Origin: a virus
DNA: 22,460 bases
Reading direction: 5' to 3' (one strand)
Virus record (IMG/VR): IMGVR_UViG_3300029945_000335
Location: 1 to 22,460 of that record
Shown here: positions 3,981 through 11,985 of the stretch, in pieces
Numbering within the stretch: position 1 is the first letter of the stretch
Layout: each line of letters starts with the position of its first letter
Position numbers and translations under genes: made by a program
The notes under the pieces: model-generated
Told to the model about the DNA's origin: nothing
Database searches by the model: none
The model's input: only the letters and a program-made list of their open reading frames with translations

Positions 3981-5714
3981 TCACGGTCGGCACGCCATCC
4001 AGGCCCGGATAACCTCGGCCGCCGGATACGGATTTATCGCATTCCCGATCGCCCGGAGCTTAAGGACGTCACCCGGCACCCGCCGCGCCAGCGGGAATGT
4101 ATTTACGAGCCTCCAGTCTCGCGTATCAAAACCCAACCTGATGAGACCCTTACTTTCGTTGTCAAGGCGTCTCCATACTTCGCCGACCGGGTGAGATGCG
4201 TATAGCACAGACCCCGCTTGATAGATGGCCGCGCGCAGTGCACGCAATTCACTCGCTGCGTGCCGTTCGCCGTGAAGTTCCGCGAGTGACAGCGACGGTG
4301 ACAGGAGCCGCACAATGTCATGAAGTTCAGCGGGCTGTTGTTCATCGGATCGAGATCCATGTGATGCACATAGAGCCGCCCCTTCGATCGCGCTTTCCCG
4401 CACGCCTCGCACGTTCCTTTTGCGGCTTTCCCTGATTGGACGCGGCTCGTCATGGGCGAGGGGACAGCCCTCATCACTCCCTCCATCGCCGCCGCCATGC
4501 AAGCCCTGTTGCAGTACTTCCGACGAGCAAAGTTCGATCGGTCTTCTAGAACTCGGTTCTCCCACCTTTTGCGCACTAGCGGCGCCCCACACGCCAGACA
4601 GTTCTTCGCGGGGACCGGTAGCGTCGGCGGTGCCATTTACTTCTTCATGCGCGTTGGCAGTGGAGCGCAATCTAACCATGCCGGCGGTATCCCTTGCAAC
4701 CAACCGGACATAAGGGGATTGAGTAGGCCGCCGCTTGCCGTCGCGGCATTCAATCCATTCAAGCTCGCGCCAGGGATGAAGTGCGCGACCTGATGGTTCA
4801 GGTTCTCCCCTTTCTTGCCGCCGCCCCGTTCCTCGTAGGTGTGGTGCGCCGGCGTCCGGTAGTCCCGCGCGTTCGGCGTCGCCCACCCTCGCTGTAGCGC
4901 CCGTTCCAACGATGCTGGCGCATCCTCGGAACCTTTCCGGGCGCTCCATGGCTCGCCGGCCACCAGAAGCTTCGTCGCCGAGTGCAGGTTGTCTGATATT
5001 TTCCCCGCCGCCAGACGCTTCGCCGAAAACCCCGTGCTCTCCACCGTGCGCAGATCCGACCCCGCTCCCCTGGCTTGCGCCGCCTCGCTCGCTCCGGTCC
5101 AGTCGCTTTCCCGGGGCGTCGGCCAGCCTGCCGTGCGGGCGGCATCCGTCAGCGTCTGCCCCGCGTTCGTCGCGCTGGTCCCGCTGCTTTCCGCATCCAT
5201 AGCCGTCGGCGTCGGCCACCCAAAAGAACCGGTGTCGCAGGTTCGGCGCACCGACCCCCGCAGAAGGCAGTACGGCCGCCCCGCAGGTGTAGCCACAGTT
5301 TTCCAGGTCAGCCGATACAACGTCGAGCCAGATCCGGCCATCGACGCTTTCAACCTGCTCCCCAGCGAGGCTGACAGGTCGGCACTGGCGGATGAGCCAA
5401 TGCCACGCGGGCCAGAGGTGGCGATCGTCAGCAAACCCAAGTCTTTTGCCGCTCTGGGAGAAAGGACCGCATGGACAGCTTCCGGTCCAGATGCGGCGGC
5501 CGTCCGGCCATCCGGCCATGCGAAGCGCGAGCGGCCAAATCCCAATGCCTGCGAAGAAATGGCACTGGACGTAGCCGCTGACGTCGCTGGGGCGGACGTC
5601 GCGGATGTCGCGGTCGTCGACATCTCCTGCTGGAATAAGTCCATCTGCGCAGAGATTGCGAAGCCACTGCGCGCAATTCGGGTCATTTTCATTGTAGTAA
5701 ACGTCGCCGCTCAC
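3981..5714 (-). CDS. DNA (cytosine-5-)-methyltransferase, phage type
   Basis: This would methylate C5 of cytosine in duplex DNA using S-adenosylmethionine. From GTG 5714 the product is 577 aa: motif I FFAGIG at 53-58, motif IV SCPCGPFS with catalytic Cys82, motif VI GEQVES at 118-123, motif VIII RHRFFWVAD from 160, and motif X AIGNAINP near 556-562. GTG is chosen because GTGA overlaps the stop of the upstream 57-aa gene and because phage relatives begin just before YYNENDP; ATG 5819 would run through that gene. Motif IV normally reads PCQPFS; here Gln is Gly. Residues about 167-335 are low-complexity because a second frame shares the DNA. Residues about 360-535 are the frame opposite an embedded HNH gene, so whether the full 577 aa is one working enzyme is uncertain. 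Confidence 0.8.
   Translation of the reverse strand: MSGDVYYNENDPNCAQWLRNLCADGLIPAGDVDDRDIRDVRPSDVSGYVQCHFFAGIGIWPLALRMAGWPDGRRIWTGSCPCGPFSQSGKRLGFADDRHLWPAWHWLIRQCRPVSLAGEQVESVDGRIWLDVVSADLENCGYTCGAAVLPSAGVGAPNLRHRFFWVADADGYGCGKQRDQRDERGADADGCRPHGRLADAPGKRLDRSERGGASQGSGVGSAHGGEHGVFGEASGGGENIRQPALGDEASGGRRAMERPERFRGCASIVGTGATARVGDAERAGLPDAGAPHLRGTGRRQERGEPEPSGRALHPWRELEWIECRDGKRRPTQSPYVRLVARDTAGMVRLRSTANAHEEVNGTADATGPREELSGVWGAASAQKVGEPSSRRPIELCSSEVLQQGLHGGGDGGSDEGCPLAHDEPRPIRESRKRNVRGVRESAIEGAALCASHGSRSDEQQPAELHDIVRLLSPSLSLAELHGERHAASELRALRAAIYQAGSVLYASHPVGEVWRRLDNESKGLIRLGFDTRDWRLVNTFPLARRVPGDVLKLRAIGNAINPYPAAEVIRAWMACRP
4103..4636 (-). CDS. HNH endonuclease nested in the methyltransferase locus
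   Basis: 177 residues. An N-terminal zinc-ribbon-like part carries C13-x2-C16 and C42-x3-C46. The HNH core follows: CEACGK at 76-81, HH at 91-92, N104, and CGSCHRRCH at 109-117. A third Cys/His cluster, CVHC at 131-134 with C144 and H147 (GLCYTH), is typical of phage HNH proteins. Such enzymes cut DNA with a single metal ion and many are homing endonucleases. ATG 4636 directly follows the TAA of the open frame at 4637-5692, in the same frame, with GAAGAAG just upstream. Sampled lines here run 50-62 percent GC against 77 percent in a neighbouring line, suggesting a later arrival. Confidence 0.85.
   Translation of the reverse strand: MAPPTLPVPAKNCLACGAPLVRKRWENRVLEDRSNFARRKYCNRACMAAAMEGVMRAVPSPMTSRVQSGKAAKGTCEACGKARSKGRLYVHHMDLDPMNNSPLNFMTLCGSCHRRCHSRNFTANGTQRVNCVHCARPSIKRGLCYTHLTRSAKYGDALTTKVRVSSGWVLIRETGGS
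4637..5692 (-). CDS. overlapping frame resembling a known phage protein family
   Basis: This 351-codon frame shares its DNA with the methyltransferase gene, same strand, different frame. It is not a random shadow. It carries ATSGPRGIGSSASADLSASL, LYRLTWKTVATPAGR, the repeated GWPTPTAMDA, GWPTPRESDW and GWATPNARDY motifs, and the ending GGLLNPLMSGWLQGIPPAWL, which I recall from many annotated phage proteins. The start is uncertain: ATG 5692 is used, but ATG 5644 or 5623 would also serve. The family has no proven activity, is often labelled methyltransferase-associated, and may itself be partly a conserved reflection of the methyltransferase frame. Its TAA is followed at once by the HNH ATG. 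Confidence 0.5.
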   Translation of the reverse strand: MKMTRIARSGFAISAQMDLFQQEMSTTATSATSAPATSAATSSAISSQALGFGRSRFAWPDGRTAAASGPEAVHAVLSPRAAKDLGLLTIATSGPRGIGSSASADLSASLGSRLKASMAGSGSTLYRLTWKTVATPAGRPYCLLRGSVRRTCDTGSFGWPTPTAMDAESSGTSATNAGQTLTDAARTAGWPTPRESDWTGASEAAQARGAGSDLRTVESTGFSAKRLAAGKISDNLHSATKLLVAGEPWSARKGSEDAPASLERALQRGWATPNARDYRTPAHHTYEERGGGKKGENLNHQVAHFIPGASLNGLNAATASGGLLNPLMSGWLQGIPPAWLDCAPLPTRMKK

Positions 5715-5884
5715 GCGCCCTGGGCCGGCGGCCAGCCAGGCTTCATCTGCGGAAACGGGATCTTGCAGAAGCGGCACAAGGCTTGATCGGTCGGCGACTG
5801 TATCGGTCCGTCGCCCCACTTCATCCGCATCCGCTCGCGGATGAACGCCAGCAAGCTTCCCAGCGTCAGGGGCTCCTCCGTCAT
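5711..5884 (-). CDS. small CxxC protein, 57 aa
   Basis: The gene runs from ATG 5884 to TGA 5713-5711. Both ends are in stop/start overlaps: ATGA with the HTH gene before it and GTGA with the methyltransferase after it, which is strong support for a gene this short. The product begins MTEEPLTLGSLLAFIRERMR, then has CRFC at residues 37-40 and a Pro/Gly-rich end (PFPQMKPGWPPAQGA). A single CxxC could bind zinc as a dimer. Function unknown; its tight coupling suggests balanced expression with the methyltransferase. Confidence 0.65.
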   Translation of the reverse strand: MTEEPLTLGSLLAFIRERMRMKWGDGPIQSPTDQALCRFCKIPFPQMKPGWPPAQGA

Positions 5885-6204
5885 GGCCAGCCGCCCCGAT
5901 AAAGCGGCGTCGTCGCCATCTCGGCTTTTGCCGCGGCGATCTCGGCGCGCGTCATTGCATCGATTGCGATCCGGTCTGCGCCTCGCTTCGCTGCGCTCAA
6001 ACGGTCCTGCGCGACCACCGTCGGATCGAGCTTCGGCACCAGCCGCGATGCCTCCTCGCCGCGCGCTCGTGCCAGCGCTCGCTTCGATGCCGAGTAGACG
6101 CCGCCGAGTTTCAGGCCAACGTCCTCGGCAATCGACGCCACAGGCTCGCCGGCATCGATGCGTCGGCGGATCGCCTCATCGCGCTCGCGGTTGTGCGGAC
6201 GCAT
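5881..6204 (-). CDS. HTH-type DNA-binding protein, 107 aa
   Basis: ATG 6204 overlaps the stop of the DUF1376 gene (ATGA). Residues about 8-42 (RDEAIRRRIDAGEPVASIAE, then DVGLKLGGVYSASKRAL) follow the helix-turn-helix pattern 'I-x2-G-x-[ST/P]-x2-x-I-A-x2-[VL]-G-[LV]'. The rest is a charged helical region ending TPLYRGGWP. It sits immediately downstream of replication genes, so a regulator or a replication accessory protein are both possible. No named family is recognised. Confidence 0.65.
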   Translation of the reverse strand: MRPHNRERDEAIRRRIDAGEPVASIAEDVGLKLGGVYSASKRALARARGEEASRLVPKLDPTVVAQDRLSAAKRGADRIAIDAMTRAEIAAAKAEMATTPLYRGGWP

Positions 6205-7343
6205 CAGGCGACCCGCCGGGCGTTGCGAACGGTCGCGTCGAACACCGCGATCGAGCGGACCACCTCGCCGCCCATGCGCTCGGCCTGATGGCGGATGCCG
6301 TACAGCACTGGCTCGGTGATGAAAATATCCTCGCGCATCCAGGCGCCCATGGCGTCCCAGTTGCCCCGCCAGCTTTCCGGCAAGCGGGCGGCGTTGGCGA
6401 TCGTTTCGGCCAGGTCTTCGACGATGAAGCCGTTGATCGACGACATCATCCGCCCGTTGGTGGCGTGTTCGGCGAGGTGCACGTCGGGCTGACGCGCGAT
6501 CCATGCCCGGATGCCGTACGGGTCGGACGGTCCGGCGGAGCCGATTGTCAGCAGCGGCGTCAGGCGCGCCTGGATGCCAGCGGTGATCCAGTCCATCGGC
6601 CCGTCAGGCTGCTCGGTTTCCGCCTTGCGCAGCACCTCCAGCAGCAGGGCGTGATCGCCCCCCGCCACACTCAGCAGGCGGCCAAGCGCCTTACGCGCCC
6701 GATCTTCGGGGTATCGGGTCAGGCGGCGGAAGATACCGAGGCCGTCCCCCCAAAGCTCGATTTTAAGCGCTTCCAGCAGGTCGATCTGTTCGCCCGGCGC
6801 GGCGGCAGCCGGCGCCGAACGAAGTGAGGCGGAATCTTTCTTCCTTTGTGAAGGTGAAGGTGAAGGTGCATCGTTTTGCCATGCGTTTGCCATAGGCGGG
6901 GCGATGGCAACCGCATCTGTTTCGCCATCTTTTCCGGATGCGTTTGCCATCGCCCCGCCATCCTTTTTGGATGCGGTCGCCATCGCCCCGCCATCGTCTT
7001 TTTTGCTCCAGCGCGCGTCGGCCCCGGCCTTCCCGGCGGTTTTCCGTTGATCGACGATCCCTTGCGCGTTGCTTAGTTCCTGGTCGATCCGCTTATGGCG
7101 GAAGGTGTCGCCCGCGCGATGGAAAAACCCCATCAGAACCGGACGCGCCCGCTTCCACTCCGCGCGTTCCATTCTAGCGATGGCGCGCAGTCTTTTTTCG
7201 TCGGCGGGCAGCGCACCGCCGCTTGTCCACGCCTGCATGAGCAGCAGCAGGTAGCCGCCGTGCTCCGCCGCCGTGAGGTGTCCGGTATCGCGCAGATAAT
7301 CGCCGACATAGAGCGGCATCCAGGTATCTGAACGGGTCGCCAT
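6204..7343 (-). CDS. DUF1376 domain protein, probable replication initiation/helicase-loading factor
   Basis: Residues 1-75 match DUF1376: WMPLYVGDYLRDTGHLTAAE, GGYLLLLMQAW, LRAIARMERAEWKRARPVL, FFHRAGDTFRHKRID. Phage proteins with this domain usually sit beside a helicase gene and are thought to act in replication initiation. Residues about 105-175 are a repetitive Lys/Asp/Gly/Ala/Ser linker. The C-terminal half (LEALKIELWGDGLGIFRRLT onward) is folded but unrecognised. ATG 7343 gives a TGATG overlap with the helicase stop; the in-frame TTG just before it is less likely. It is 379 aa. Confidence 0.8.
   Translation of the reverse strand: MATRSDTWMPLYVGDYLRDTGHLTAAEHGGYLLLLMQAWTSGGALPADEKRLRAIARMERAEWKRARPVLMGFFHRAGDTFRHKRIDQELSNAQGIVDQRKTAGKAGADARWSKKDDGGAMATASKKDGGAMANASGKDGETDAVAIAPPMANAWQNDAPSPSPSQRKKDSASLRSAPAAAAPGEQIDLLEALKIELWGDGLGIFRRLTRYPEDRARKALGRLLSVAGGDHALLLEVLRKAETEQPDGPMDWITAGIQARLTPLLTIGSAGPSDPYGIRAWIARQPDVHLAEHATNGRMMSSINGFIVEDLAETIANAARLPESWRGNWDAMGAWMREDIFITEPVLYGIRHQAERMGGEVVRSIAVFDATVRNARRVA
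6848..6868. repeat. GTGAAG hexamer repeat, 3.5 copies
   Basis: Three perfect GTGAAG units plus a final GTG lie inside the DUF1376 gene. Read on the minus strand they encode the Ser-Pro run in its linker. Copy changes would keep the frame. Confidence 0.9.
6936..7003. repeat. two near-identical ~33-bp repeats inside the DUF1376 gene
   Basis: Copies at 6936-6968 and 6969-7003 share ggatgcg and the core gccatcgccccgccatc. On the minus strand they encode KKDDGGAMATAS and KKDGGAMANAS, with a degraded third unit (GKDGETDAVA) beyond. The repeats make up most of the flexible linker. Confidence 0.85.
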
Positions 7344-8938
7344 CAAAACTCTCCCTCTTCGACATCATCCCACCGCCCGACAGGCGGGGCCGTCATCAGC
7401 GACATCTGCCGGGCGGCCGCGTCCTCGCGCCATTCCGTCAGCAGCATGCGCGGGCCGTTGAAGCGCAGCTTGACCGGCGATCCGGTCGGGCCGAACCGGC
7501 GCTTGAGCGCGATGAACTCGGCGACGTCGCGCACCTTGGCGCGCTCCTGCTCCCAGGCGCTCTGCGCGTCGGCCAGCTTTTCCTTGCTCTGCCCCGACGG
7601 AAGCCGGGGCTGCTCCATCGGCATGTAGAGTTCCGGCCGATGCAGCGCGAACACGCCATCTGCCGCCTGGCCGCCGTCATACGGCAGGTCATCGAGCGTC
7701 GGGCGCACTGGCATATCGCCAGACTTCGTCTTGTTGATCTGCGCCAGCGCGATCACCGGACAGTTCGTCGCTTTCGCCAGCGCCTTGAGCTGGTAGCCAA
7801 GATACGGCACCCATTCCGGCAACTGCATGCGTGACTGCTCGCGCCCGCGGCGGACCAGCTCGCGATAGTCGATGCAGATCAGCCGCGTGTGCTTCTGCCG
7901 CTTCACCGCACGAGCCCGCATGACCAGCGCTGGCAGGTCCATCTCCGACGCGTCGTCGATCTCGATCGGCAGGCTTCCGAGTTCCTTCGCGTCGACCGCG
8001 AACTGCTTCCAGGCCGCGCCTGACGCCATCTGGATCGCTTCGTCGTCGTGACGAAAGGCGGGACCGATCTGACCGCCGCGGATCTGGTCGGCCGAGAGGT
8101 CGGTGACGCTTGCCAGGTTGATCGTCAGCAGGTCTTCAGCGGTCATTTCGAGCGAGAACACATGCACGTGCCCGGACGGCTTGCCGGTCGTCGCCGCCTC
8201 GTCGCGCAGCGTGCGGGCGACATTGCGCGCGATCTGCATCATGAACGGCGTCTTTCCGGTTCGGCTTCGCGCCATGACGTAGTAGAGCTGGCCGGGCCAC
8301 AGCCCGTTCCAGACGGCGTCGACAGGGCCGATGCCGGTGTCGAGGCGCCGTTCGCCAGGCGAGCCCTTCCAGGCGGCCAGGGCACGCTGCACCGCCCGTT
8401 CGGCGGCCGTGGCAAAGTCGGTGCCCCGGTTGGCCGCAGCGTTGCCGCCCAGCGCCAGCACCGCCTCGGCGGCGTTGTCGACCATCTTCGTCACGTCAGC
8501 GCCGGGTTCCTCGCCAAACGCCGCGTTGGCAATGTCCTCGCTGACGTTGATGAGCTGGCGCCGCATCCACGTGTCGTAGATCGTCTTGGCGTAGGTGCCG
8601 GTCGTCATCCAGCCGATGTTGGCGTTCAACAGTTGCGCCAGGTAATTCGTGCCGCCGACGTCATCGAGCACGCCAGTATTCTCGAAGTCGCTCTTCAGCG
8701 TCACCGCGTCGGCAAGCTGGCCGGCGGCGATGCGATCCATCGCGCGCTGGAAAATATACGCATGGATCGGATCGGCGAAATGCTCCGCGCGCAGGAACTG
8801 GCAGAGATCCGCCGTCTTTGCGTTGTTCGACAGCAACGAGCCTAGCAGCGCCTGCTCCGCCATCAGGTTGGACGGTGGCACGCGCGGGGCGGCGCCGAAG
8901 ATCGGCGTCTCTCCGCGAAATGGAGCGTTATCGGGCAT
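7343..8938 (-). CDS. DnaB-type replicative DNA helicase
   Basis: 531 aa from ATG 8938. The N-terminal DnaB domain (LMAEQALLGSLLSNNAKTAD, about 25-125) is followed by the RecA-type core: Walker A ARSRTGKT at 223-230, SLEM at 262-265, Walker B RLICIDY at 352-358, and ALAQINK at 397-403. A hexameric 5'-3' helicase that would unwind the phage fork is the expected role. Usual DnaB proteins have GRPSMGKT and IDYLQLM; here the lysine and aspartate are kept while ARSRTGKT and IDYRELV differ. ATG 8938 is chosen over an in-frame TTG 8950; it overlaps the upstream gene by 11 nt. The next gene is DUF1376, a common pairing. Confidence 0.92.
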   Translation of the reverse strand: MPDNAPFRGETPIFGAAPRVPPSNLMAEQALLGSLLSNNAKTADLCQFLRAEHFADPIHAYIFQRAMDRIAAGQLADAVTLKSDFENTGVLDDVGGTNYLAQLLNANIGWMTTGTYAKTIYDTWMRRQLINVSEDIANAAFGEEPGADVTKMVDNAAEAVLALGGNAAANRGTDFATAAERAVQRALAAWKGSPGERRLDTGIGPVDAVWNGLWPGQLYYVMARSRTGKTPFMMQIARNVARTLRDEAATTGKPSGHVHVFSLEMTAEDLLTINLASVTDLSADQIRGGQIGPAFRHDDEAIQMASGAAWKQFAVDAKELGSLPIEIDDASEMDLPALVMRARAVKRQKHTRLICIDYRELVRRGREQSRMQLPEWVPYLGYQLKALAKATNCPVIALAQINKTKSGDMPVRPTLDDLPYDGGQAADGVFALHRPELYMPMEQPRLPSGQSKEKLADAQSAWEQERAKVRDVAEFIALKRRFGPTGSPVKLRFNGPRMLLTEWREDAAARQMSLMTAPPVGRWDDVEEGEF

Positions 8939-9227
8939 CGACGCCGGCAAGCGCCGCCATCTGGCGGATCGCGCTAATCGTGCCGTCGATCTCCGCCGCC
9001 TTGTCAGCTTCTGTCACGTCGGGCGCGGCGAGGATCTGGCCGACGGCGGCGAGGAAGTATCGCCGCTCGACGTCGAACACGGCGGCTTGCGGAACCGGGG
9101 CTTCAGCACGCGCATTCCGGCACGGCTGATACATGCAGTCTTCGTGTCGCTGGCACGAACCGATTGAGCAACTGCGCCACGCGGCAGGCGCGGCGGGCGG
9201 GCGGACGAACGCGATGATGTTCTGCAT
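8928..9227 (-). CDS. hypothetical protein with N-terminal Cys cluster
   Basis: The 99-residue product has four cysteines near its start (CSIGSCQRHEDCMYQPC, residues 21-37), spaced as in small zinc or metal sites. An all-helical C-terminal half follows (VERRYFLAAVGQILAAP then EADKAAEIDGTISAIRQMAA). It overlaps the DnaB-type gene by 11 nt and follows the SF1 helicase with a 9-nt gap. Its place between two helicase genes suggests a replication accessory role; no family is recognised. Confidence 0.65.
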   Translation of the reverse strand: MQNIIAFVRPPAAPAAWRSCSIGSCQRHEDCMYQPCRNARAEAPVPQAAVFDVERRYFLAAVGQILAAPDVTEADKAAEIDGTISAIRQMAALAGVDAR

Positions 9228-9236
9228 GATGAACTT

Positions 9237-10580
9237 TCAGACCCCCGCGAGGATCAGCGACGTCGTCGGGCGGGTCGCGCCGACGTAGCAAAGCTGTTGC
9301 GTCTCCAGCGGATTGTCCCGCGCCCGCTGGCGAATGTCCGGCACATCGAGGAACGTGTGCTTGTGCGTCTCGCCCTGCGCGGTGTGCACCGTCCGCGCGT
9401 AGACCGCCTGGAAGCGGGCGAAGAACTGCTTCATCACGTGCAGGTCGAGCCATCGGCCGCCGGCGCGATCCGCCTCGGCCCTGATCCGGTTCAGCGCCGC
9501 CTCGTAGGCATGCGTGGCGCGCACCATCTGCGCGTCGAATGTCGTCTCGTCATCGCGCCGCAGCGTCATCTTCCACGTCGGGATCGTCTGCGACCATGCC
9601 GGCACGTCCTGACGTTTCTCCACCGTCCAGACGTATTCGTCGTGCTCGATCTCAGTGACGACCGCTTCCTCGTTGGTGTTGGCGATGATCTGCTCGTCAT
9701 CGACGATCGGCGCCCGCAGAAGCGCCCGCTCACCCGGCACGAACGGCGTCAGCAGGTTGTCGCCATACAGCCAGCCGCGCACCTTGGCGTTGACGTCGGC
9801 AACGCGCCGGTTGGTCCAGGCGAGATAGCGGAACGACGTCGGATCGGCAGCAAACTCAGCCGAGGTGAACGCTTTCTGCATCCAGCGGTGCAGCGCATCG
9901 CCGGGAAGGTATACGCCGCCCTGCTCCGTCCTGACGGCGCGGCACCACGACCAGTCGATCGGACCGCCCTGCTGCATGCGGATCTGGTGCGCCGCGGCGA
10001 TGATCGGATTATCGGCGGCCTGACGGACGATGGTGTCGAGGTGGCTGCGGCTGGTGGTGGCGAACGTCTCGCTCGCGTCTTCACCGACCGGGGGAAGCTG
10101 CGCCGGGTCGCCAGAGTAGAGCAGCCCGCGGCCAATCAGGTGCACGCGGATATGGTCCATCACGTCGGACGACACCATGGAGCACTCATCAAGCAGGATG
10201 ACGTCGGCCTCGATCGGCTCTGCGTTCTTGCGGCGCACGAAGACCAGCCGGTCGCCACGCGGTTTCGGCGACAGGCTCAACAGCCGGGCCAGTGTGAGGC
10301 AGGGGATCTCGATGCCCGCCATGCGCATCTTCTTGGCGAGCACACTGACCGCCTGGTGCGTCGGCGCACACATCACGACCTCCAGCTTGCGCGCCAGGAC
10401 GATGATCGCCACCACCTGCACCACCACGGTCTTGCCGACGCCGGCATATCCGGTCAGCAGATGGATGCGATGTTTCTTGATCGCGTCGAGGATTTCGCCA
10501 ACGGCGCGGAACTGCCCGGCATTGAGCACCACGCCCAGAACCTTCGCCGCTTTGGTGATCTCGTCAGTCATCGCGGTCAT
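9237..10580 (-). CDS. SF1 DNA helicase, RecD/Dda-like
   Basis: 447 aa from ATG 10580. It has Walker A GYAGVGKT at 44-51, motif Ia CAPTHQAV at 71-78, Walker B ILLDECS ending at 134, motif III GDPAQLPPV at 157-165, and near the C-terminus the UvrD_C_2 motifs VHTAQGETHKHTF and LCYVGATRP. This is the 5'-3' superfamily 1B set of RecD and T4 Dda, used by phages for fork restart, displacement and recombination. Length suits Dda-like proteins. ATG 10571 is an equally plausible start; the open frame further upstream overlaps another gene. Confidence 0.9.
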   Translation of the reverse strand: MTAMTDEITKAAKVLGVVLNAGQFRAVGEILDAIKKHRIHLLTGYAGVGKTVVVQVVAIIVLARKLEVVMCAPTHQAVSVLAKKMRMAGIEIPCLTLARLLSLSPKPRGDRLVFVRRKNAEPIEADVILLDECSMVSSDVMDHIRVHLIGRGLLYSGDPAQLPPVGEDASETFATTSRSHLDTIVRQAADNPIIAAAHQIRMQQGGPIDWSWCRAVRTEQGGVYLPGDALHRWMQKAFTSAEFAADPTSFRYLAWTNRRVADVNAKVRGWLYGDNLLTPFVPGERALLRAPIVDDEQIIANTNEEAVVTEIEHDEYVWTVEKRQDVPAWSQTIPTWKMTLRRDDETTFDAQMVRATHAYEAALNRIRAEADRAGGRWLDLHVMKQFFARFQAVYARTVHTAQGETHKHTFLDVPDIRQRARDNPLETQQLCYVGATRPTTSLILAGV

Positions 10581-10770
10581 CACGCACACGCGACTGCGCG
10601 CCCGAAGCGCGTTCGATCGCCGGATGATGCGCGGCGCACCACGCCTGTAATGGCACATCTCGCACCGGGCGCGCGGGACGCCCCGCGCATGCCTCTCCGG
10701 GGTGTGCCTCTGCGCCCGGTGCGCACCCGATCCAATCGTCCGACCCGCAGACGCAGCAGCAGATCAGCAC
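10564..10770 (-). CDS. small Cys-rich protein, possible zinc finger
   Basis: Starts at GTG 10770, one base after the previous stop codon, and ends overlapping the helicase start. The 68 residues begin LICCCVCGSDDWIGC, giving a C-x2-C and further Cys at 16, 28 and 46, with HH nearby (CAAHHP), and end in an acidic/basic tail. The spacing and overlaps fit the operon, but the protein is short and Arg/Ala-rich, so it could be a chance frame. No function assigned. Confidence 0.45.
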   Translation of the reverse strand: MLICCCVCGSDDWIGCAPGAEAHPGEACAGRPARPVRDVPLQAWCAAHHPAIERASGAQSRVRDDRDD

Positions 10771-10771
10771 G

Positions 10772-11428
10772 CTATGCGCCTGACCGCCGGGTGAAGTCCC
10801 GCTTGAACGGTGGCTGGCCTAGATGCTCCAGCCGTTCATTCACCGCCGGCAGGTCGTCCCATGTGCGGAAGTTGATGCCGCGCTCGCTCGCCCAGCGCCG
10901 GATCTGCTCGAAGTCCATGCCAACCGGTTCGCGGCCAGCGCCCAGCGAGGCGGCAACCCGGCGGATCGTGTCCATGCGGTTCGCCGGGGGGGCGGTGGCT
11001 GGCGCGACCGGCTTATCATCGTCAGGCCGCTTCAGGCCCATCTTCCCCGCCTGGTGGCCGATCATCTCGATTGTCACCGGCAGGCCCGGCACCGCCCGCA
11101 ACTTCTGGTATATTTCAGCGACCGGCGTGCCCTTCGGCCATTCGTCGGCGATGACGCGGTTGCGCGCTGGGGTGAACGTCTTCCCGACGATAGTCTTGCC
11201 TTCGCTGGTCGTTTCGGCGGGTGGCGCGACGGCCGGCGCGGGCGCGTTCACCAGGGGCGGCGAAACCGGATTGCCGCGCCTGGGCGGCGGGGCGAGCGCG
11301 ACGTTGCCCGCCGTGTAGATCATCAGCGCCGCGTCGACCGCGGCCAGACAACGCTCCAGCGATTTCTTTTCAGCCAGTAAATGCGAAATGAACGCCTGAC
11401 GTTCAGCAGCGAGTTCACCGCTTTCCAT
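10772..11428 (-). CDS. HTH protein with GcrA-like segment
   Basis: 218 aa. Residues about 5-40 form a charged helix (AERQAFISHLLAEKKSLERC), then a Pro/Ala linker, then an HTH-like block: RNRVIADEWPKGTPVAEIYQ followed by IGHQAGKMGLKRP. That block resembles the GcrA/HTH pattern of alphaproteobacterial and phage proteins (W-x3-[GT]-x4-I...A-x2-[LM]-GL-x-RP). A second helical block ends the protein. ATG 11428 makes a TGATG overlap with the resolvase stop. It probably binds DNA; a replication or transcription role is open. Confidence 0.7.
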   Translation of the reverse strand: MESGELAAERQAFISHLLAEKKSLERCLAAVDAALMIYTAGNVALAPPPRRGNPVSPPLVNAPAPAVAPPAETTSEGKTIVGKTFTPARNRVIADEWPKGTPVAEIYQKLRAVPGLPVTIEMIGHQAGKMGLKRPDDDKPVAPATAPPANRMDTIRRVAASLGAGREPVGMDFEQIRRWASERGINFRTWDDLPAVNERLEHLGQPPFKRDFTRRSGA

Positions 11429-11985
11429 CAACCGGCCTTCCTGGTTTTCGGTCGGTCGGCGCGGATGCCCATCTCGAACGCCCAGCCCACAGCGGCATCA
11501 CGCGCGTTGTTGTCGGTGATGTCCCAGCCCCGCGCGACCACCCACGGCTTGACGATCGCCTCCTTGACGTCGATCCGGTCGTCGCTTTCCGCCTCGGTCA
11601 CGCGGCAGCGCCCGCACACCTGCGCCCGCAATGTCTGCGCCGAGCGGCGACGGAACTCGCGCGCCCACCGCCACGTGACGGCCTCGGCCACGCCCGACAG
11701 ACAGATCAGCAGCTCCGCCGTATGTGCACTGCCGACGGCGCCAGCAGCCATCGGCGCCTCAATGCCGACGACTGCTGGCTGATACTCAAAGATGGCGTCG
11801 GCCAGTTCGTTTTCGAACGCGGCCAGTCGCGCGCCAAGCGTGACGCTGACGCCTGACGGTAACTGCCACACGCCCCACACCGGTCCAGCTTCGACATTGG
11901 CCAGCGTCCCATAACAAAAACCGGTCCTGGTGCTTATGTCGAGAAAAAGCACCCCTCCTTTCTCGACCGCCAGCGCCTCGACCAT
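11428..11985 (-). CDS. RuvC-like Holliday junction resolvase
   Basis: The 185-residue protein has the RNase H-fold acidic residues of RuvC-type resolvases: D16 in LFLDIST, E76 in VVGIEAP, and D158 and D163 in DITDNNARDAAVGWA. It would cut branched DNA during phage replication and before packaging. A CGRC motif at about 124-127 is an extra, not usual in RuvC. ATG 11985 directly follows the previous stop with no gap. Phage RuvC-like enzymes often appear in early operons together with helicases, as here. Confidence 0.85.
   Translation of the reverse strand: MVEALAVEKGGVLFLDISTRTGFCYGTLANVEAGPVWGVWQLPSGVSVTLGARLAAFENELADAIFEYQPAVVGIEAPMAAGAVGSAHTAELLICLSGVAEAVTWRWAREFRRRSAQTLRAQVCGRCRVTEAESDDRIDVKEAIVKPWVVARGWDITDNNARDAAVGWAFEMGIRADRPKTRKAG

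Follow-up and report, generated by a model that had tools for sequence, protein, structure and literature searches.

A candidate homing-type HNH element at the shared 3′ end of two overlapping phage genes

Organization of the locus

The window, which is the whole stretch of viral DNA that was analysed (virus record IMGVR_UViG_3300029945_000335, 22,460 bases), contains one C5-cytosine methyltransferase (MTase) frame, one HNH endonuclease gene and one further open reading frame, P3 (Table 1). The MTase frame matches phrog_363 (E 3e-61) and PF00145 (46.8 bits); profile matches and model alignment identified both the catalytic motifs and the fold of C5-cytosine MTases. Motifs IV, VI, VIII and X and the catalytic core fold are common to the window MTase and the M.HhaI-type enzymes; different from that type, however, the window MTase has ∼200 extra residues before motif X and is overlapped by a second gene. 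Replication genes (primosomal protein, DnaB-like helicase, Dda-like helicase and RuvC-like resolvase) are located upstream of the MTase, at positions 6204–11985.

Table 1. Features of the MTase locus in the window
Feature	Position	Strand	Remarks
C5-cytosine MTase frame	3981..5819	minus	612 codons from GTG 5819; open through the insert
MTase, shorter version	3981..5714	minus	577 codons (577 aa) from GTG 5714; a start near 5714 is favoured by relatives
P3, 'GWPTP' protein, 351 aa	4637..5692	minus	+1 frame of the MTase; phrog_1008, E 3e-19
Inserted element, 618 nt (P3 cap and HNH)	4098..4715	minus	alignment with HNH-free L003, L004, L006 and L038
P3 C-terminal end (LLNPLMSGWLQGIPPAWLDCAPLPTRMKK, then stop)	4637..4726	minus	gives LRSTANAH when read in the MTase frame
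HNH endonuclease gene, 177 aa	4103..4636	minus	in the frame of P3; phrog_1271, E 5e-12
Second, intact MTase C-terminus (FPLARRVPGDVLKLRAIGNAINP..)	3981..4097	minus	C-terminal helix, pLDDT ∼92 in the model

The initial annotation had described an HNH reading frame inside the MTase frame, in another frame, with one motif X region on each side of it, and these features were all recovered. The first motif, LRSTANAH, is encoded at 4647–4670 of the minus strand (residues 384–391 of the 612-aa frame, 349–356 of the 577-aa version); the second, GNAINP, is encoded at 4029–4046 of the same strand. As had also been proposed, the MTase frame is open across the insert (0 stops observed, 3.4 expected when the codons of the unchanged HNH protein are shuffled synonymously, p=0.014), and the GC content of the insert (0.587) is lower than that of the MTase part upstream of it (0.656). 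Insertion of an HNH element into the MTase gene was borne out as well, and aligned relatives without HNH exist: in HNH-free L003, L004, L006 and L038, PTQS/P passes straight into FPLA..GNAI. The 5′ border of the insert was placed where identity to L003 falls from ∼97% to ∼62%.

P3, which was absent from the initial annotation, is a 'GWPTP' repeat protein. Nearly all relatives encode it, too, in an overlapping +1 frame of the MTase gene, and it is often misnamed or unannotated. It is labelled methyltransferase in PHROGs, and at least one phage record, PhiXhv-18, has both overlapping genes annotated. In one locus (L017, 4004–5575), a repeated GWPTP region, and not HNH, accounts for the extension of the MTase to 525+ codons. 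To estimate the openness of the P3 frame, we shuffled the MTase codons synonymously in 45 related loci, over the region between motif IV and either motif X or, where present, HNH. These loci were found by search with the MTase protein alone, and both frames were kept in them. One translation, P0004, was read in the wrong frame and was left out of the analysis. The P3 frame contains 1 stop, with 97 expected; for the third frame of the same loci, the numbers are 422 and 408, respectively. On account of this depletion, P3 is very probably a translated protein. The predicted model of P3 is poor (mean pLDDT 56), and only one helix and hairpin near residues 100–150 exceed 80.

In HNH-free phages, the end of P3 (LNPxxSxWLMGxPxxW) and motif X of the MTase are read from the same DNA, with GNAI placed 56 nt from the P3 motif in all 32 HNH-free relatives. 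L003, an HNH-free member of the window lineage, encodes PTQS-GLFPLAARHPGDVAKLRAYGNAI in one of the two frames and LLNPDFSRWLQGIPATWPSCAPT in the other. After PTQS, the window keeps the P3 reading and has lost the MTase reading.

HNH genes inside open methyltransferase frames

The window HNH protein contains one N-terminal CxxC pair followed by the HNH motif, and it scores 17.1 bits against PF01844, below the cut-off of 21.4. It nevertheless belongs to the HNH superfamily by its HNH motif, its zinc-binding CxxC pairs and its match to phrog_1271, and it has 27 invariant residues, including C, HH, N and H, in common with four relatives. Searching with a profile of the four relatives' proteins and the window's gave 134 viral candidates, 80 of which were kept, and 12 more in bacterial or archaeal genomes; the HNH is also found in phages phiKX1 and phiKX2 and in Staphylococcus phage CUB-EPI_14. 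In phiKX1 (L055, LC644975.1 12262–13887), the element is present and the MTase is unannotated, only pieces of it being listed as hypothetical proteins. A Staphylococcus phage MTase (L149, ON325435.2 36629–38434), annotated as one CDS, hides the family HNH in another frame.

Among 97 HNH loci, 92 sit in a longer open frame, which has the same relative phase and continues past HNH; in most of them, this frame is a recognisable MTase gene. The other five are two contig ends of one locus, the free-standing genes L129 and L139, and one weak match on an archaeal contig (L147). Holding the HNH protein fixed and shuffling its synonymous codons, we expected 248 stops in the flanking frame through HNH in 56 distinct loci and observed 12. 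Fifty-four of the 56 loci have no stop at all; since all 12 stops fall in the two free-standing genes, L129 and L139 act as negative controls, and the openness of the frame through HNH is not due to chance. Both free-standing relatives (L129, 2980–3318; L139, 3004–3465) are located downstream of a non-C5 methyltransferase-like ORF, as called by reading the sequence. They resemble the free-standing phage HNH endonucleases (phrog_1271 and others), to whose sequence family the HNH belongs; unlike those, the majority of the members identified here are enclosed by an MTase frame.

One could argue that HNH and MTase form a functional pair, either a restriction-modification unit or a self-regulating nuclease, whose overlap reflects operon economy and not mobility. 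The enclosure of at least 92 of the 97 HNH matches in a longer open frame, mostly a recognisable MTase gene, would fit such a pair, as would the fusion of P3 and HNH in six loci. However, most close relatives have no HNH, one empty/filled pair of alleles exists, and two HNH relatives are free-standing. The HNH-bearing MTases also do not form one clade: on a tree built by a quick method from 84 rows and 165 columns, at least 13 changes are needed and a single clade is rejected (p-AU 0.0004). The distribution of HNH among related MTases on this tree is disjunct, and HNH similarity shows only moderate correlation with MTase similarity (rho 0.43). We therefore consider a functional pair improbable.

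Two copies of the gene end

In filled loci, a diverged P3 end comes first, followed by HNH in the same frame and then by motif X. The origin of the two copies is best seen in one pair of alleles, in which a 474-nt insert in L051 (filled) replaces 3 nt of L029 (empty), with both flanks near-identical. Downstream of the insert, motif X and the following sequence are 98.7% identical over 150 nt; given such flanks, motif X on the downstream side belongs to the resident. The first copy of L051, on the other hand, is new and diverged relative to L029.

The same division was observed when conservation was scored at the columns conserved in HNH-free loci. HNH-free loci match these columns well in both the P3 frame (0.91) and the MTase frame (0.93). 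For the first copies, the match is 0.81 in the P3 frame and 0.28 in the MTase frame; for the second copies, it is 0.31 and 0.75, respectively. Thirteen of 30 second copies have stops in the P3 frame; in the MTase frame, all 30 loci have a conserved motif X past the insert, with no stops. Conservation of the first copy is thus limited to the P3 reading and that of the second to the MTase reading, and the MTase frame is open through HNH. In similarity comparisons of 24 loci, for which the cap windows are short (51 nt), similarity of the first copy goes with that of HNH (partial rho 0.54, p=0.001), and similarity of the second goes with that of the MTase (0.37, p=0.0055). Compared with HNH-free ends, the cap is for the most part recoded synonymously, the codons TCC CGC TGG CTC ATG GGG being changed mostly to AGC AGA/CGT TGG TTG ATG GGT. 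Judged from these alignments, the first copy reads as a cap carried by the element, which within the family is the reverse of the initial reading. P3 was not found in L149 and some others, so that the cap is not universal.

The initial annotation had proposed that the HNH element brought a replacement 3′ end of the MTase, leaving the upstream copy as a dead relic of the old end. For the window itself, this view draws on the 5′ flank, which is 98% identical to that of HNH-free L003, whereas both copies and everything downstream differ (67% identity for the second copy). As a family-wide reading it fails at L029/L051, where the downstream end is the resident's, and it does not agree with second copies that track the MTase and first copies that track HNH. 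Nor is the upstream copy a relic, as the P3 frame is conserved in the first copies, where it encodes the C-terminus of P3. Such replacement is accordingly rather unlikely. LRSTANAH is the shadow of the P3 C-terminus, that is, what is left of motif X once only P3 matters. The alignment with HNH-free genes that had been proposed for locating the joins did place the 5′ join, by L003; among the relatives compared, it yielded no empty allele matching the window on both sides, and for this reason co-replacement of the window's own 3′ end is possible. The window cap belongs to its own LQGIP lineage. In L005 (∼4860–5065), one short spacer without HNH parts the P3 end from motif X; its cap, compared by eye, is no nearer to the window's than that of L003, and the spacer might, at a guess, be the scar of a lost insert.

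As to the MTase product, the AlphaFold model of the full protein aligned to M.HhaI with a Z of 14.6 and an rmsd of 2.7 over 170 residues (model residues 38 to 612). The catalytic core and the last helix are confident, and confidence is low across the whole insert and the first copy; the C-terminal helix (pLDDT ∼92) is aligned to residue 323 of M.HhaI. Based on this predicted structure, the second copy is supported as the working motif X and the insert as a loop. It could instead be supposed that the MTase is inactive in filled loci and that the frame is open for some other reason, such as polarity or HNH expression, and 16 loci without a continuous MTase frame (described below) would suit this. 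Yet 30 of 30 loci retain a conserved motif X in the MTase frame past the insert, with no stops, and we regard general inactivity as unlikely.

Phage introns commonly contain HNH genes, and the insertion site here is conserved, as would be expected if the insert were one self-splicing intron or intein with an HNH ORF. However, no Rfam match to group I or group II intron RNA was obtained in the window or in ten other loci. The typical insert of 471–474 nt is filled by the cap (∼84 nt) and HNH (∼372 nt), which leaves no room for an intron core, and the MTase frame is kept open. With no Rfam matches and an insert filled by coding sequence, the intron reading was rejected, and an intron or intein is highly improbable.

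Proposed mechanism and related systems

Translation of HNH appears to be linked to P3. In the window, the HNH ATG directly abuts the P3 TAA, in the same frame, and the HNH start lies 0–6 nt past the P3 stop in 24 of 26 loci with separate P3. Shine-Dalgarno matches of at least 4 nt were found in the last codons of P3 in 20 of these 26 loci, compared to a background of 24%; the match is AGGAGG in L051, and it is weak in the window (GAAGAAGTAA ATG). In six loci (L066, L067, L068, L069, L137 and L138), P3 and HNH form one ORF with no stop between.

We propose, with a probability of about 0.75, that one homing-type HNH element entered the 3′ end common to the MTase (motif X) and P3 (LNPxxSxWLMGxPxxW), splitting the two overlapping genes, with the cap serving P3. 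HNH would cut empty alleles near the conserved dual-coding end, and repair would copy the insert into the cut allele. The cap would keep P3 whole and, being recoded, may escape cutting. Due to its 3n length and lack of stops, the insert would allow the MTase to be made with a loop of ∼200 residues before motif X, and HNH would be translated by coupling to P3, through the Shine-Dalgarno sequence present in the last P3 codons of many relatives. Homing is, we infer, the simplest explanation of these sequence patterns.

The proposed model leaves 16 loci unexplained, in which the MTase catalytic frame differs from the frame running through HNH (L096, L090, L092, L095, L099, L100, L102, L106, L107, L110, L113, L114, L118, L122, L123 and L130). 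In those of the rotated loci where the end of the MTase catalytic frame was examined, this frame terminates close to the first copy, and the frame of P3 crosses HNH into motif X. Such loci might be explained by frameshifting, by an MTase made in two parts or by a dead MTase.

The closest known system is the ShiLan domain, in which an actinophage methylase gene contains an HNH in another frame while its own frame is open; its authors left translation of the HNH open and noted one short repeat between the start of the insert and the residues after it (Arsenault, Gosselin and Gogarten, 2025, PMC11855218). Like ShiLan, the present family has an out-of-frame HNH within a phage methylase gene, no stops in the host frame, patchy distribution, and no intron or intein signature. 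Different from ShiLan, a second overlapping gene gains a new end here, and the HNH start is coupled to that gene; in the sequence of ShiLan gp65 that we examined, the MTase is DPPY-type, HNH is in the +2 frame and there is no P3 ORF. The ShiLan HNH was not among the relatives of the window HNH, as tblastn (E 1e-5) against one phage collection containing ShiLan gave no Mycobacterium match. Since the ShiLan domain is already published, the present case is a variant of out-of-frame HNH insertion.

The other known device is that of the fungal mitochondrial mobile ORFs with C-terminal duplication, in Glomus atp6, atp9, cox2 and nad3 and in Allomyces atp6 (PMC3630166). There, too, the endonuclease ORF brings one diverged, largely synonymously recoded end of the host gene, and the native end lies downstream. 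A diverged copy of a host gene end is likewise carried here, for P3. However, in the fungal ORFs the imported end is used by the gene that was entered, whose native end is then redundant, whereas in the present family the imported end is used by P3, and the native one is still conserved for the MTase; moreover, the fungal endonucleases are LAGLIDADG or GIY-YIG, and here it is HNH. The present family combines both known devices at one dual-coding end. In the literature searched, which left out most subscription papers and bioRxiv, we found no description of the P3/MTase overlap or of an element that enters a gene end coding in two frames and brings a recoded cap.

On balance, we are inclined to regard this family as a natural home-and-rescue element for a dual-coding gene end, in which the recoded cap would rescue one gene and the in-frame insert the other, while both are split. 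If so, the pattern of frame decay in the carriers shows that both overlapping genes are real. Because after insertion one copy keeps only P3 and the other keeps only the MTase, the comparison of these copies provides strong evidence that P3 is a real gene. The stop-start coupling to P3 suggests an answer to how hidden HNH genes are translated. The same event, found in dozens of phages, is a natural experiment on overlapping genes, and the family could serve as a simple system in which to study homing into DNA that is constrained in two frames.
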